A stretch of DNA of 64,000 nt, from the NCBI GenBank assembly GCA_020850475.1, contig JADZEO010000155.1, positions 1 through 64,000 on the forward strand. The letters run 5' to 3'. A program made the translations under genes and the position numbers. Positions 51,452 to 58,728 of this stretch are shown here, in pieces. Source of the stretch: Bdellovibrionales bacterium (lineage in GTDB: Bacteria > Bdellovibrionota > Bdellovibrionia > Bdellovibrionales > UBA1609). Each line of letters begins with the position of its first letter. Position 1 is the stretch's first letter. The notes beneath the pieces are model-generated. The model did no database searches and was not told the DNA's origin. It saw only the letters and a program-made list of their open reading frames with translations.

Positions 51452-51822
51452 GAATTGAATTTATGGAATTGATGAATCGCTTACTGAAATGGGGATGGCT
51501 TTTGTATTTGCGGGTGCGAGTAGCGACAACTTTATGGTGGTTACGCAAGAAGGCGAGCTTGACTAGAGTCGAGTCTGCTCAAAAGCTTGGGGTTGATGAA
51601 GTGGTTCTCGGTTCCTATGAATGCGCGCGAGTTAGCCCGCCAATGCACATGATTGCGGAAATGCTGCGGCTCTATCGTGCCGACGAACGAGCCATCCTGT
51701 TCTTTTGCATGACACCATACCAGGGGCAATTCTGGCGATCCACACGACTTACTAAAGTCGGATGTAAATCGCCCAAGATTGTATTGCGGCGTAAACGGCC
51801 GCTAGCCGTCATCGAACGATGA
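51445..51822 (+). CDS. HTH-domain protein
   Basis: RKKASLTRVESAQKLGVDEVVLGSYECARVSPPMHMIAEML. Confidence 0.6.
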   Translation: MKRIEFMELMNRLLKWGWLLYLRVRVATTLWWLRKKASLTRVESAQKLGVDEVVLGSYECARVSPPMHMIAEMLRLYRADERAILFFCMTPYQGQFWRSTRLTKVGCKSPKIVLRRKRPLAVIER

Positions 51823-52138
51823 TGTTCCCGGTGATCATATCCATGCCGCAACCAAAACGAAGTTCACCCTTGTCGAGCTTTCCAAGCGCGATGGTAACGG
51901 GTTTATTCAAAGGCAAATCCTTCTTAATATTTTTCGACTTAATTTTAATTTGGGTAGCGCATGTTGAATCCGTCTTTCTCGTAACTTTAAGAACGACGAG
52001 AACTCCAGGCTTAACATCTACTGAATTTGGCTCGAATCCCTTTTCTGTCACTTGGAGTTCCACGACCTGATCTTTCGCCTGAGCGAGAGCGGGATGAAAG
52101 TTTAGCGTAAATAATATTGCCATGATAATTGATTTCAT
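51809..52138 (-). CDS. Secreted cupredoxin-like protein
   Basis: Signal peptide, VTEKGFEPNSVDVKPGVLVVLKVTRK, C-terminal GCGMDMITG. Confidence 0.8.
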   Translation of the reverse strand: MKSIIMAILFTLNFHPALAQAKDQVVELQVTEKGFEPNSVDVKPGVLVVLKVTRKTDSTCATQIKIKSKNIKKDLPLNKPVTIALGKLDKGELRFGCGMDMITGNIIVR

Positions 52139-55100
52139 TGGGCCTCCTTTGCATTTTGTTTGAAGTACGTTCTTTCTTTCCAGATGTAAAAAACCACGGG
52201 GTAAATGAGTAGCTCCAGTAAAAAGGATGTGAAGAGACCGCCGATCATCGGGGCCGCAATTCGTTTCATCACGTCGGCACCGGCCCCCACAGACCACATA
52301 ATTGGGATAAGACCCATAAAGAGAGCGGCCACGGTCATAAGCTTTGGTCTTACGCGGTGAACAGCGCCTTCAATGATGGCGCCTTTTAGGCCCGAAAGAT
52401 TACGCATCTTTCCCTTTTTCACATGTTCATCAAACGAGAGGTCGAGATACATGAGCATGAAGACGCCTGTTTCGGCGTCGAGTCCCAGGAGCGCAATCAT
52501 GCCTACCCACGCGGCGATTGAGAGATTGTAGTCAAGGGCGACGAGCAGCCATACCGCTCCGATCAGCGAAAACGGCACGGCAAGGAGAACGATTCCAGTC
52601 TTTATCCAGGACTTGGTGTTGAAATAGAGAAGGAAAATGATGAGAGCGAGCGTGATTGGAATGACGACTTTGAGTCGCTCTTTCACGCGCTCCATGTTTT
52701 CAAACTGACCGCTCCACGAGATGAGATACCCCTCCGGCACCTTGACCTTTTCTTCTACGAGCTTTTTGGCTTTGCCTACATAAGTGCCAATGTCCACCTG
52801 CGAAGGATCGATATCGACATAAACATAGCCAACCAAAGAAGCGTTCTCATCGCGGATCATGGACGGTCCTTCTTTGAAATGGACCTTTGCGATTTCTGCG
52901 AGAGGAATCTGGGCTCCAGTCGGAGTTGTAATCAGAACTCGCTTGGCGGAACTTATATCCTGACGGAAAGAGGGTGCCAATCTCACCTGGGTCGGGTATC
53001 GCTCGCGGCTAGCTAGGATTTGCGACACGTTTTCGCCGCCGATTGCGACCATCGCCTGATCTTGCGCATCTTTAAGCGAAAGACCATAGGATTTCAGTTT
53101 CTCGCGGTCGAAATCGACATCCAAGAAATAGCCACTCGCGATACGTTCTGCGACGACGGTTCTCGTACCACTAAGCGTTTTGATTTCTTTTTCAAGATTC
53201 TCTCCGATGGCCTGAATGGTCTTGAGATCGGCGCCAAAGATTTTAATACCAATCGGGCTTCTAATGCCCGTGGAGAGCATGTCAATTCGATTTTTGATCG
53301 GCATGGTCCAAATGTTTGGCATACCGATGAAACTAAGCTTTTCATTCATCTCATCGACAAGCCGTTCCTCACTGATCGTTTCCGGCCAGATTCTCTGGAA
53401 CGGACCTTTGGTAAATTCGGGCAGGAAGGAATACCAGCGGCGGTCCTTTCTCCACTCTGATTTCGGCTTCAGGACAATCGTGGTTTCAAACATACTAAGC
53501 GGCGCTGTATCGGTTGACGTGTCAGCCCGTCCGGCTTTCCCAAAGACAGTATCCACCTCAGGAAACGATTTAATAATTTTGTCCTGCTCCGTGAGAAGTC
53601 TCTGCGCCTCGCTAACTGATACGCCAGGGAGAGCTGTGGGCATGTAGAGAAGACTTCCTTCGTGAAGTGTCGGCATGAATTCTGAACCAAGCAGCATGAA
53701 CCCAGGAACAATCGAAATCAGTCCCGCGAGCGCGAATCCAAGCGTCGCTTTCTTATGGTTCAGCACCCAATCGACTACGGGCTCATAAATTTTGAACAAA
53801 CGTCTACTGATTGGGTGCTTGTGTTCAGAATAATAGGTTCCAACGAGTAGCGTGCTACCTATGCGATTGAGCCATTTATTTGGGGAATTGAATGGGTCGG
53901 CTCTCGCGAACATCATCCGCATGGCGGGATCGAGCGTGATTGCAAGGATTGCCGCAATCGCCATCGCGAAGTTTTTAGAAAGCGCAAGCGGCCTAAATAG
54001 GCGCCCCTCTTGATCGACAAGCGTAAAGATCGGAATGAAAGCGACGGCGATTACAAGAAGCGAAAAGAAAACCGAAGGACCAACTTCCATCAATGCATCA
54101 AGGCGAACCTTAAAGAAGTTTTCTTTTCTTCCGTTTTCGTCCCAATGCTGGATTTTTCTATAGGCGTTTTCTACTTCAACGATAGCGCCATCGACTAGAA
54201 CACCAATTGAGATGGCGATACCGGCTAGAGACATGATGTTTGAGCTCTGTCCAATGAGATAAAGCGGGATGAACGCCAGAAGAACGGAAATGGGAATAGT
54301 GACGATTGGAACGATCGCTGAGGGAATGTGCCAGAGAAAGAGAAGAATAATGAGAGCCACAATTATCAACTCTTCTGTGAGTGTTCCCTTTAAAGTCTCA
54401 ATCGCGCGCTCGATAAGATCAGACCTGTCGTACACAGAAATAATCTTCACGCCTTCAGGAAGAGATTTTTGAATTTCGCTAATTTTGGCCTTCACCCGTT
54501 CAATAACGGCGGGTGCATCTTCACCTTGGCGCATGACGATGATTCCGCCAACGGTATCACCAAAGCCGTTAAAATCGGTGATTCCTCGCCTCATCTCGGG
54601 TCCCACGGATACGGTCGCTACTTGTTTTATGAGAATGGGCGCGCGGCTTCTAGTGTTGAGCATTACCACGGCGTTTTCGATGTCTTCGACCTTATCCACG
54701 AGTCCGCGACTTCGGACCATTGCTTCAGTACCGGAAAATTCAACGGTCCTACCGCCACTTTCCTGGTTGGAATTTTTGACGGCGTCCATAACCTGATTGA
54801 TCGAGACCTGAAAGAGCGCAAGTTTTGTGGGATCTACTTTGACCTGGTACTGTTTTACAAAACCACCGATGGGAGCAACTTCTGCGACGCCCTGAACTGC
54901 TTGAAGCTGAAAGCGAATGAGCCAGTCTTGCATGGATCTTAGGTCCGAAGGATTAAACCTGCCAGATTCATCCCTGAGCGCGTATTGGTACACCCAACCG
55001 ATGCTTGTTGCATCAGGGCCAATTTCAGTTCTTACACCGCTTGGAAGCTGGGAGGTGATTCGATTCAGATTTTCAAGAACGCGACTTCTTGCCCAATAGA

Positions 55101-55404
55101 GATCAACGCCGTCTTCAAAAATTACGTAGACGTAAGAAAAGCCATAGTCCGAGAATCCCCGGACGGATTTTACCTTTGGCGCTCCCAATAATGAGGAGAC
55201 AATCGGATACGTGACCTGATTCTCCATAATATCTGGAGAGCGGTCCCATTTTGAGTAAATGATGACTTGGGTGTCAGATAGATCAGGAATCGCATCGAGC
55301 GGAATTCGTTTAAGCGAATAAAAGCTAATCGCCATAAGAACAGCAGTGATGGATAAAACTAGGAAGCGATTGTGAGCCGAAAATTCGATGACTTTTTTAA
55401 TCAT
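52135..55404 (-). CDS. cusA: CusA-type heavy-metal RND efflux pump
   Basis: 1089 aa; IPLDAIPDLSDTQVIIYSKWDRSPDIMENQVTYP. Confidence 0.95.
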   Translation of the reverse strand: MIKKVIEFSAHNRFLVLSITAVLMAISFYSLKRIPLDAIPDLSDTQVIIYSKWDRSPDIMENQVTYPIVSSLLGAPKVKSVRGFSDYGFSYVYVIFEDGVDLYWARSRVLENLNRITSQLPSGVRTEIGPDATSIGWVYQYALRDESGRFNPSDLRSMQDWLIRFQLQAVQGVAEVAPIGGFVKQYQVKVDPTKLALFQVSINQVMDAVKNSNQESGGRTVEFSGTEAMVRSRGLVDKVEDIENAVVMLNTRSRAPILIKQVATVSVGPEMRRGITDFNGFGDTVGGIIVMRQGEDAPAVIERVKAKISEIQKSLPEGVKIISVYDRSDLIERAIETLKGTLTEELIIVALIILLFLWHIPSAIVPIVTIPISVLLAFIPLYLIGQSSNIMSLAGIAISIGVLVDGAIVEVENAYRKIQHWDENGRKENFFKVRLDALMEVGPSVFFSLLVIAVAFIPIFTLVDQEGRLFRPLALSKNFAMAIAAILAITLDPAMRMMFARADPFNSPNKWLNRIGSTLLVGTYYSEHKHPISRRLFKIYEPVVDWVLNHKKATLGFALAGLISIVPGFMLLGSEFMPTLHEGSLLYMPTALPGVSVSEAQRLLTEQDKIIKSFPEVDTVFGKAGRADTSTDTAPLSMFETTIVLKPKSEWRKDRRWYSFLPEFTKGPFQRIWPETISEERLVDEMNEKLSFIGMPNIWTMPIKNRIDMLSTGIRSPIGIKIFGADLKTIQAIGENLEKEIKTLSGTRTVVAERIASGYFLDVDFDREKLKSYGLSLKDAQDQAMVAIGGENVSQILASRERYPTQVRLAPSFRQDISSAKRVLITTPTGAQIPLAEIAKVHFKEGPSMIRDENASLVGYVYVDIDPSQVDIGTYVGKAKKLVEEKVKVPEGYLISWSGQFENMERVKERLKVVIPITLALIIFLLYFNTKSWIKTGIVLLAVPFSLIGAVWLLVALDYNLSIAAWVGMIALLGLDAETGVFMLMYLDLSFDEHVKKGKMRNLSGLKGAIIEGAVHRVRPKLMTVAALFMGLIPIMWSVGAGADVMKRIAAPMIGGLFTSFLLELLIYPVVFYIWKERTYFKQNAKEAQ

Positions 55405-55407
55405 ACT

Positions 55408-56340
55408 TTAGCCCTTACCCGGCATACACATCGACATTGGAATATCCCAATGCTGGCCTTCAGGGCACGAGGGCGTGGGCTTTTTGTCAGAGCCGCCGGC
55501 TGGATTTGATACCCCGCGAATCTTGGCTTCGGAGTCGATCAGGAAGTTCGGGCCTGAGCTAATGACTTCGCCGACCTTTAGCCCATCAAGCACTTCATAA
55601 AAGCTCTCCGTTTTCGGGCCCAGTTTAACTTGCCGTGCGGTAAGTCTGTTTCCTTCTCCAAAGATGTAAACGAGGTCTCCAGAGCCGGTATGAAGAACTG
55701 CACTCTCAGGAATCGCAATGCGATCTTTCAGATTTATTTCGACTTCACCGCGAAAACTAGTCTCAGAAAATAATCCTCTTGGACCTTTTTTGACTGAACC
55801 CACAACGCGAACCGTGCGGCTGGTCGGATCAACAATGGAGTCCACGGAGGAAATCGTTCCTAAAATTTCTTCTTCGGGATAAAAACTACTTTCCCCTTTG
55901 AAGCTTAGTCCCGGTTTCACGTAGCGAAGATCGCTCTCATACACCTTAAATGCTACGGAAGAAGACGAAAGAAAACGGCCCGACACCGGCAAAAGAACCT
56001 TCAAGTCCATTTTTTCGACTGTGTGTTTTTGAATTCCCAGAAGGGCAATTTGAGAGTCGCTCGCTTGAACCTCGGAGCGACTTTCTCCTTTTGTTGATTG
56101 ATTTTGCATTTGAGCTTGCTGCTGTTTCACCTGAACTAGCTTCATGTGGCAGATGGGGCATTCGCCCGCTTTACCGGAATGAATCTGCGGGTGCATGGGG
56201 CACGTCCAATAACTGATTTCTTCCATTTTCGTGACGCTCGATTTCTCCGGATTCATTTCTTTTTTCTTAAAAAGGTCTTTTGCGGCCCAGAGCCCGATGG
56301 CGACGGTGAGTGCTACAATCCACATCCACTTCTTTTTCAT
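55408..56340 (-). CDS. cusB: Short CusB-like adaptor with heavy-metal-binding domain
   Basis: YWTCPMHPQIHSGKAGECPICHMKLV; adaptor barrel SVDSIVDPTSRTVRV. Confidence 0.85.
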   Translation of the reverse strand: MKKKWMWIVALTVAIGLWAAKDLFKKKEMNPEKSSVTKMEEISYWTCPMHPQIHSGKAGECPICHMKLVQVKQQQAQMQNQSTKGESRSEVQASDSQIALLGIQKHTVEKMDLKVLLPVSGRFLSSSSVAFKVYESDLRYVKPGLSFKGESSFYPEEEILGTISSVDSIVDPTSRTVRVVGSVKKGPRGLFSETSFRGEVEINLKDRIAIPESAVLHTGSGDLVYIFGEGNRLTARQVKLGPKTESFYEVLDGLKVGEVISSGPNFLIDSEAKIRGVSNPAGGSDKKPTPSCPEGQHWDIPMSMCMPGKG

Positions 56341-57542
56341 TGGTTGTCCTTACTTTGCGCGTACTTTTGAAGCTCGCTTAATGCCTCTTCATACTGCTCG
56401 CGGTATTCGAGCGCTTTTAGCTTGAGGTCCGGGAAGGCTTCCATCGTTTCGCGGTGATCCTGGAGTGTCTCCATATCCCGGGGCGCGAGATTGTGAACGA
56501 GCTGCATCCTCTTTTCTGCACGCGGCAGGAGTTTCGTCACAAGATTATCTAGCTGCTTTTTGAGTGACTCTGCCTTTACAAAGAGAGAGGTCTTTTCGGT
56601 CTGGACTTTTCGTTTTTCTCTGGCGAATTCAAACTCAGCTTGAAGCCTCTGGGCCGATGCACTGTTCGAAGCCGCACGCGGCTCCCAAAAGAAGACAAAT
56701 GGAAGGCTCACTCCCACCATCACTTCGTTGTAGCGAGGGTACATGGAACTTGCTCCCATTTGCTTATAGCGGAGATTGAGTTCGGGGAACCAAGAGGACT
56801 TGGCTTCGCTCTCGCGCGCTTTAAAGCTCTCAAGAGTTAGCCTTGCATATTCGAGTTGGTGGGGAGACTCGATAGATGAGTTCTCTGGAAGCGCGGTAAC
56901 TTGTGGCTCTTTCACGATTGGCCGAAACTGCGATGGATCGGCATTTACAAATTCTGCCGCTTCAATCTGTTTATTTCTTAAGCTTTGTTCAGCGGTCAAT
57001 ACCTCGTTATCAAGTGCATCTACGTCAGATTCAGCTCTGAGAATGTGGATATTGGAAAAGCTGTCGGAGCGCGCCCCTGCGCGGGAAAGTTTAATGTGTT
57101 GACCAATGACCGCCTTCTTTTCTTTTAGAAGGCCAATGCGCTCCTGCGCAGCCCACATGGAGAAGTAAAGAAGACGCGCTTTTGCAATCACTTCGCTAGA
57201 GAAGGCTTTGCGCATTTCTGCTTGTGCTTCAGCCTCAAATTTTCGCGCCGAGCGATCATTAGAAAGTTTTGTTGGAAACGGGATTGTCTGGCTGACTTCA
57301 AATCCCGAAGCCGTGCTCCCATCATCCATATTCATGCGATTGATGCCGACCATCGGCGGCGGCAGATTAACGCCCACCGCGCGAGCGCTTGCCGCGTCAG
57401 CTTTGGCTGATTCAACCTTGAGACCGAGATTTTGCGATCTTACCTGGCTAAGAAAGGAATCGAGAGTAAGTGCCTCTTGCGCAAACGCTGGAGGGTCCAG
57501 TACAAGAAGAAGGCAAATAATGAAGGCTAGGATTCGTTTCAT
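56337..57542 (-). CDS. cusC: CusC/TolC-like outer-membrane efflux protein
   Basis: Signal peptide; OEP-type helical sequence; gene order. Confidence 0.85.
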   Translation of the reverse strand: MKRILAFIICLLLVLDPPAFAQEALTLDSFLSQVRSQNLGLKVESAKADAASARAVGVNLPPPMVGINRMNMDDGSTASGFEVSQTIPFPTKLSNDRSARKFEAEAQAEMRKAFSSEVIAKARLLYFSMWAAQERIGLLKEKKAVIGQHIKLSRAGARSDSFSNIHILRAESDVDALDNEVLTAEQSLRNKQIEAAEFVNADPSQFRPIVKEPQVTALPENSSIESPHQLEYARLTLESFKARESEAKSSWFPELNLRYKQMGASSMYPRYNEVMVGVSLPFVFFWEPRAASNSASAQRLQAEFEFAREKRKVQTEKTSLFVKAESLKKQLDNLVTKLLPRAEKRMQLVHNLAPRDMETLQDHRETMEAFPDLKLKALEYREQYEEALSELQKYAQSKDNQ

Positions 57543-57544
57543 GC

Positions 57545-57664
57545 CCTCTAATACGAGGGAACGAAGCTTTTGTGACAAGAAATTTTATCTCATTGAAATC
57601 GTTGGATATTTTGACAATCTTTCGAGGGCTTGTCACAATTGAGCTGATGCCATCGTATTAGAGG
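57545..57664. promoter_or_regulatory. Symmetric divergent ECF-type promoter region
   Basis: Inverted pairs: TTGTGACAAG 57570-57579 / CTTGTCACAA 57629-57638, and CCTCTAATACGA 57545-57556 / TCGTATTAGAGG 57653-57664. Confidence 0.8.
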
Positions 57665-57670
57665 TTGTGA

Positions 57671-58204
57671 ATGAACGGATTAAAAGATCGGTCGGACGAG
57701 GAGCTTATGACGCTTTATCAGGGCGGTGATTATGCGGCCTTTGAATGTCTTTACGAAAGGCACTCCGGTCGCGTGTTTCAATATCTCAAAGGTAAAGTCT
57801 CCGCTGAAGCCGCGAAGGATCTTCTTCAAGAAACTTTCCTCAAAATTCATCGCTCGCGCAGTCAATATCAGCCGCAGTATCCATTTTTGCCTTGGTTGTT
57901 TACTGTTGCACGAAACAGCTTGAATGACTTCTTTAAGAGCCCGGATCAGAAAGTCATCAAAATTGGTATCGATACCGATTCGCTCCCAGCAGCACTGCCA
58001 CACATTGGATCTGAGCATGATTTGTCTGCGGCGCTAAGTGGCTTACCTCATGTTCAACGTCGCGCGATTGAACTCCGGTATTTAAATGAGTGGTCATTTG
58101 AAAAGATCGCCGATGAAATGAGCACGACCCCCGAAAATAGTCGGCAGATCATTAGCCGAGGGATTAAAAAGATGCGCTCCTTGCTTCGGGGAGGGAAAAA
58201 ATGA
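57671..58204 (+). CDS. ECF-type RNA polymerase sigma factor
   Basis: FECLYERHSGRVFQYL, AKDLLQETFLKIHRSRSQY, RRAIELRYLNEWSFEKIADEMSTT. Confidence 0.92.
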   Translation: MNGLKDRSDEELMTLYQGGDYAAFECLYERHSGRVFQYLKGKVSAEAAKDLLQETFLKIHRSRSQYQPQYPFLPWLFTVARNSLNDFFKSPDQKVIKIGIDTDSLPAALPHIGSEHDLSAALSGLPHVQRRAIELRYLNEWSFEKIADEMSTTPENSRQIISRGIKKMRSLLRGGKK

Positions 58205-58728
58205 AGATTACAGAAAAAGAATGGCTTGAGGATTTTAAAGATTTTGTAAGTTCAGAAGGTGCCGCTGTACCACAGGATGTTTCAAGAAAAATTCTCAGGC
58301 GAATTCATGCCGAAATGAACCCTTCGCCTTGGATGGTGTTTTTTAAATTGTTCGGCGTCCATTTAGTTGTAGGAACCTTGTCTCTCGCGATTTGCAACCA
58401 ATTTGGGCTCAATCCCTTTCATACCGGTTTTTCTCTCTCTGAATACTTCATGAAGTTTGGTCATTCTGCATGTATGTTTTTATGTGGAGTTCTATTTATC
58501 GGACTCACTATTTCTCTTTGTCAAATTTTTCTGAACCGAGATGAATTTAGAATTCTCGCTCGAAACGTATTTCTTCAGGTATTCGGGCTTGCGGTCTTTT
58601 CGCTTGTTGCGTTCATTGGGTTTGGGGCAGAAATCGTTTTGAGTATCGGTCTTCTTTGGCTGATGGGAGCAATGATAGGCGGTGTAGTAACGACAAAGGC
58701 CTTCATCAGTCGTCCTAGCTTCTCATGA
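58201..58728 (+). CDS. Putative multi-TM anti-sigma factor
   Basis: ATGA overlap with the sigma gene; cytosolic N-terminus then hydrophobic segments. Confidence 0.65.
   Translation: MKITEKEWLEDFKDFVSSEGAAVPQDVSRKILRRIHAEMNPSPWMVFFKLFGVHLVVGTLSLAICNQFGLNPFHTGFSLSEYFMKFGHSACMFLCGVLFIGLTISLCQIFLNRDEFRILARNVFLQVFGLAVFSLVAFIGFGAEIVLSIGLLWLMGAMIGGVVTTKAFISRPSFS

Follow-up and report, generated by a model that had tools for sequence, protein, structure and literature searches.

The window, by which we mean the whole 64,000-nt stretch of contig JADZEO010000155.1 analyzed here, very probably holds two back-to-back promoters of the ECF sigma factor encoded at 57671, a sigma factor that copper would release from a membrane inhibitor. 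One promoter faces the sigma gene itself and the other faces a copper efflux operon, so that, judged from sequence comparison, loci of this type look like a self-amplifying copper alarm. The features of the locus are as follows.

51809..52138, minus strand: cupredoxin-like secreted protein (Cupredoxin_1, 5.8e-17), whose ATG overlaps the cusA stop
52135..55404, minus strand: cusA-like RND pump (TIGR00914, 1039.7 bits)
55408..56340, minus strand: cusB-like adaptor with a heavy-metal-binding domain (HMBD 1.5e-12, HlyD_D23 2.7e-09)
56337..57542, minus strand: cusC-like outer-membrane efflux protein (OEP, 9.2e-26)
57545..57578, minus strand: minus arm, putative divergent promoter of cusC, with a conserved counterpart in 35/64 independent loci (see below)
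57630..57664, plus strand: plus arm, putative autoregulatory promoter of the sigma gene, with a conserved counterpart in 41/64 independent loci
57671..58204, plus strand: ECF sigma factor of 177 aa with regions 2 and 4 only (Sigma70_r2 3e-11, Sigma70_r4_2 1.8e-10)
58201..58728, plus strand: putative membrane anti-sigma factor of 175 aa, overlapping the sigma stop by 4 nt

Each arm joins a -35 element, TTGTCACAA, to a block, TCGTATTAGAGG, inside which sits the -10 TCGTA. On the plus strand, TTGTCACAA (57630-57638) is followed by 14 nt, TCGTATTAGAGG (57653-57664), 6 nt, and the sigma ATG at 57671; on the minus strand, TTGTCACAA (57578-57570) is followed by 13 nt, TCGTATTAGAGG (57556-57545), 2 nt, and the cusC ATG at 57542. 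An earlier note on this DNA had described boxes in both directions, 13 or 14 bp apart and ending 2 and 6 nt before the two start codons, and all of these spacings are correct. The pattern TTGTCACAA-N13/14-TCGTATTAGAGG has exactly two matches in the window, on opposite strands, and none in 100 shuffles. The genome scan that the note had proposed with this pattern likewise returned the two arms of the locus and nothing else in the 3.9-Mb genome (reversed-pattern control, 0). A relaxed search of the same genome (TGTCAC-N15..18-CGTA) gave 8 matches versus 12 for the reversed control, with only the locus pair standing out. A wide regulon in this genome was rejected because relaxed matches stayed at the control level, and from these scans the sigma factor seems to serve one locus in its own genome. 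At 57611-57639, a sigma-70-like TTGACA-17-CACAAT (10/12) overlaps the -35 of the plus arm and could drive basal sigma expression, sigma-70-like matches being at chance level (3 found, 1.7 expected).

The sigma factor scores above the cut-offs for Sigma70_r2 and Sigma70_r4_2 and reaches 80 bits against a cut-off of 42.9 for TIGR02937; it has the makeup of an ECF (group 4) sigma-70 factor, with regions 2 and 4, neither 1.1 nor 3, and a length within about 170-200 aa. To the left of the promoter pair, the genes for cusC, cusB, cusA, and the cupredoxin are tightly packed on the minus strand. The pump scores 942 bits to E. coli CusA versus 473 bits to ZneA and has the hallmarks of CusA, including the methionine triad of its copper path (LLYM, PLxM, IDML), all three of which align.

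Comparison with related genomes establishes the motif and shows that it is conserved, that it goes with this sigma lineage, and that copper genes are its targets. A relative of the sigma factor (E <= 1e-15) is present in 31 of 59 related genomes, and in most of the closer relatives the divergent motif pair precedes the sigma gene and the gene of the membrane protein follows it. An independent set of loci was picked by the downstream membrane protein alone (alignment A2), with a linked sigma gene required, and comprised 64 new loci; this membrane protein family is present in 196 of the 369 genomes of the phylum Bdellovibrionota. Relatives with names come from MAGs of Bdellovibrionales, Bdellovibrionota, Oligoflexia, and Halobacteriovoraceae. 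Within the independent set, exact TGTCACA-N14..18-CGTA lies on the sigma side of 41/64 loci, on the divergent side of 35/64, and on both sides of 30/64, rising to both arms in 41/64 when one mismatch per element is allowed; about a third of loci are without an exact arm. Markov-shuffled regions (n = 1280) contained 0 exact matches and 0 pairs, a comparison that, like Fisher's test, ignores the shared ancestry of these non-independent relatives. On this evidence from sequence, the motif pair is not chance.

The geometry of the arms indicates what kind of element they are. Total arm length is 27 nt in 55 of the 60 arms of the independent set, whereas the gap between arms varies between 1 and 90 bp (up to 185 bp among the loci of the first set) and the sequence between them is unconserved among relatives. 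Fixed arms separated by a variable stretch fit two sigma-dependent promoters rather than one operator, and a single operator between the genes was rejected on these grounds. The -10 conserved across relatives consists of TCGTA and, more weakly, a T/A-T-A extension; the -10-like box of the earlier note is thus present as given, but the conserved element is narrower. Its reading of TGTCACA and CGTA as an ECF-type -35/-10 architecture is supported by this phylogenetic footprinting. The tail TTAGAGG, common to both window arms, lies outside the conserved -10. Its GAGG was rejected as part of the -10, not being conserved in relatives, and as a Shine-Dalgarno sequence it would fall upstream of the predicted start site.

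It might be supposed that one direction alone is sigma dependent and that the other arm is a relic or a duplicated copy. Some relatives do have a single arm (on the sigma side in L097, L101, and L113, or as a divergent variant in L048 and L094), and a 12-nt block common to the two window arms could reflect local copying; however, the 30 independent loci with both arms have kept them despite a diverged spacer, and the -10 extensions match in both arms, making this reading very improbable. Sigma autoregulation together with divergent control of the cus operon, as the note had suggested, is the reading that the comparison favors, with a dyad that recurs phylum-wide and tracks both the membrane partner and one type of recognition helix.

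The recognition helix of the window sigma factor is NSRQIISRG, in which R158, S162, and R163 are invariant in a 21-sequence alignment. Across 148 sigma loci, in counts uncorrected for relatedness, the promoter motif accompanies the helix R[QK]xxSR in 58/70 and is missing with other helices in 77/78. The same helix type links the window sigma factor to ECF41, for which a -35 of TGTCACA, a spacer of 16 +/- 1 nt, and a CGT-type -10 (CGTC) have been described at promoters preceding the sigma gene and a neighboring target gene (PMC3426412, Wecke et al. 2012). The window arms share that -35, that spacer range, and the placement before sigma gene and neighbor. In one relative (G053), an ECF41-like sigma factor has an RQLxSR-type helix, TRQLASR, and immediately upstream of its gene lies TGTCACA-N16-CGTC, which matches the published ECF41 promoter (PMC3426412). 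This protein is more distant from the window sigma factor (E 5e-11) than are dozens of ECFs that lack the helix (1e-20 to 1e-35), so the -35 tracks the helix and not close overall relationship. The study defining TGTCACA held this -35 to be specific to ECF41 (PMC3426412); the present loci suggest that it is not. One recognition-helix type is thereby paired with one -35 in two ECF groups among about 150 natural sigma factors, which aids the reading and design of ECF promoters.

Membership of the window sigma factor in ECF41 itself was rejected because the CGTC -10 and the fused C-terminal domain are absent. At 177 aa the protein ends after region 4, without a fused C-terminal regulatory domain, and the PRK09636 (SigJ) model had no match above its cut-off in the window's own genome. 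The system instead has a separate membrane partner, and its targets are copper efflux genes, not a COE gene. The final base of the -10 also differs, with CGTA in both window arms and most window-type sigma loci and CGTC in ECF41-like loci, and this last base, A or C, may insulate the two circuits from each other: some genomes with the window-type system also encode ECF41-like sigma factors preceded by TGTCACA-N16-CGTC (L237 in G048, L238 in G053). In L138, L141, and L153, both arms carry GGTCACAA in place of TGTCACAA and the helices read RKRVSR or RKMISR, a possible natural helix-to-base covariation.

These helix data also bear on two further explanations. The copies of TTGTCACAA could be operators of a separate DNA-binding regulator, with ordinary sigma-70 promoters driving both operons, as might be read from the near self-complementarity of TTGTCACAA (a TTGT-C-ACAA near-palindrome) and from the overlap of TTGACA-17-CACAAT, chance-level though it is, with the plus arm. 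Yet what is conserved is the non-palindromic TGTCACAA, the first T being weakly so (42% and 70% in the two arm sets), TCGTA recurs on either side with the total length fixed at 27 nt, the motif follows the sigma recognition helix, and a known ECF41 promoter shares the -35 (PMC3426412); we consider such operators very improbable. Another ECF sigma factor of the genome might equally read both promoters, given that a first look gives 8 ECF-like candidates there and the ECF41 model gives five weak matches. Against this, the motif adjoins the window-type sigma lineage across genomes and follows its helix, most other ECFs examined have VKSRL/VKTKV-type helices, and the genome is without an ECF41-type match above the generic level, so that reading by another sigma factor is extremely improbable. 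The dyad is best read as the paired promoters of the adjoining sigma factor. Sigma relatives from other phyla (<=34% identity) that are without the membrane partner have almost no TGTCACA/CGTA motif. At L168 (upstream of 212), a sigma relative of 41% identity with no membrane partner detected nearby has a dyad with a CGTT -10 in both arms.

The arms also allow transcription starts to be predicted. Arms on the sigma side show enrichment of a T-purine step 9-10 nt past CGTA (T 76%, A or G 89%), the signature expected of a start site. The same CGTA rule places the predicted starts of the window as follows.

57542, minus strand: predicted transcription start of cusC, the A of the ATG, 10th nt after CGTA
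57667, plus strand: predicted transcription start of the sigma gene, a G, giving a leader of about 4 nt

With the cusC ATG at the T-purine position and the same layout in other loci, we predict a cusC mRNA with no leader or almost none. In 56 divergent arms, the first in-frame start codon falls exactly at the predicted start in 10 and within one nt in 5 more, mostly before CusC-type genes. Of the very short or leaderless mRNAs that the note had expected in both directions, that of cusC is supported by this comparison, and for the sigma gene the short leader listed above is predicted.

The remaining component is the 58201 protein. Its AlphaFold2 model (mean pLDDT 93) has two short N-terminal helices followed by four long hydrophobic helices, and the distribution of charges suggests cytoplasmic N and C termini and a periplasmic TM1-TM2 loop. 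Cys65, Cys91, and Cys95, which are invariant in 25/25 and 82/82 proteins of the family, lie at this loop and at the TM2 end next to it. Searches of Pfam and NCBIfam gave no consistent family match, and a Foldseek search of the PDB found no similar solved fold (best E about 1). As in co-encoded membrane anti-sigma factors, the gene overlaps that of its sigma factor, and the partner is kept in the loci examined. The 58201 protein is probably a metal-sensing anti-sigma factor, in which the N-terminal helices would hold the sigma factor and a soft-metal site would lie at the outer face. This adds a candidate membrane anti-sigma family that carries a three-Cys site and matches no known family or fold. 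One genome (G174) has six matches to this family, which suggests local expansion.

We infer sigma-dependent transcription of both operons, the start sites given above, an anti-sigma role for the membrane protein, and copper as the signal. In unstressed cells, the four-helix product of the overlapping downstream gene would hold the sigma factor. Copper in excess, or another soft metal like it, would be bound on the periplasmic side by the invariant Cys triad, releasing the sigma factor, and RNA polymerase carrying the sigma factor would read TGTCACAA (-35) and TCGTA (-10) in both directions. Rightward transcription would yield more sigma factor and more inhibitor, a positive autoregulation with a built-in brake; leftward transcription would yield cusCBA-cupredoxin mRNA starting on or beside the cusC start codon. 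We tentatively propose that Bdellovibrionota may share, across the phylum, an ECF switch for copper in which a four-helix membrane anti-sigma factor of an undescribed family senses metal directly through a periplasmic three-Cys site and fires a symmetric promoter pair with a leaderless pump mRNA.

In CnrYXH of Cupriavidus metallidurans, a sigma factor with a membrane-bound partner likewise neighbors an operon for RND metal efflux, and the window sigma factor is similar to CnrH (4cxf, E 1e-4). CnrYXH combines a single-pass CnrY with a periplasmic CnrX sensor, whereas the window partner is predicted to cross the membrane with four helices and carries three invariant Cys residues, and no CnrX-like gene was seen beside the window sigma operon. 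In Acinetobacter, SigAb is a copper-responsive ECF sigma factor for which copper genes are indirect targets, and its AabA, a 107-aa transmembrane protein, acts with periplasmic AabB (PMC12153292). SigAb-AabA-AabB resembles the window system in its overlapping downstream anti-sigma genes, small direct regulon, and autoregulation, but the copper operon of the window would be a direct, divergent target. In Myxococcus xanthus, CorE (ECF44), likewise an ECF sigma factor controlling copper-handling genes, senses copper with a Cys-rich domain at its own C terminus and acts with no anti-sigma factor (PMC3107203). The window sigma factor has no such domain, its C terminus (..IKKMRSLLRGGKK) being without Cys, and it has a membrane partner; ECF44 membership was rejected on both counts. 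Among open-licence papers, we found none relevant to the window-type system or to ECF or copper regulation in Bdellovibrio, and the system appears to be previously undescribed. The comparison adds to the earlier note phylum-wide conservation, a probable sensor/anti-sigma family, and the helix-promoter link to ECF41, and it offers a copper response that can be read from genomes, in a phylum of predatory bacteria on whose ECF regulation the literature searched says little.

In the window and in relatives, the copper genes are the divergent operon. On the divergent side, relatives have either operons of the CusCBA type or an HMA metallochaperone accompanied by membrane and secreted proteins without names and sometimes by a cupredoxin. 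Several divergent genes, among them those for an AHPVSYKG protein and a 'CCALP' membrane protein, matched no Pfam family, so the copper assignment is partly one by neighborhood. Over the 59 genomes, strict matches outside the sigma locus exceed the control only slightly. Some relatives have extra strict sites before a P1B-type ATPase with CGMTV/YTCPMHP (L252), a CusC-like gene (L255), 'HGED..GPxGG' proteins (L249, L260), and an 'AHPSSYEGG'-type protein (L266); the remaining extra sites appear random.

A few loci depart from the usual layout. The sigma-side arm is absent from six Bdellovibrio-type loci (L048, L094, L049, L092, L093, and L096) that keep the sigma factor and membrane partner; in the two of these that have a divergent arm, from genus g38 (L048 and L094), it reads TGTCACAA-N15-CCTA. 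Loci of the g38 type have apparently changed their -10 and lost autoregulation, which would therefore not be universal. At L134 (G068:C68), the two arms interlock to form a single palindrome about 45 bp before the sigma gene, TACGTCACAAAC-TTAGG-GTTTGTGACGTA, in which each -35 overlaps the -10 of the opposite arm, so that the two directions should exclude each other.
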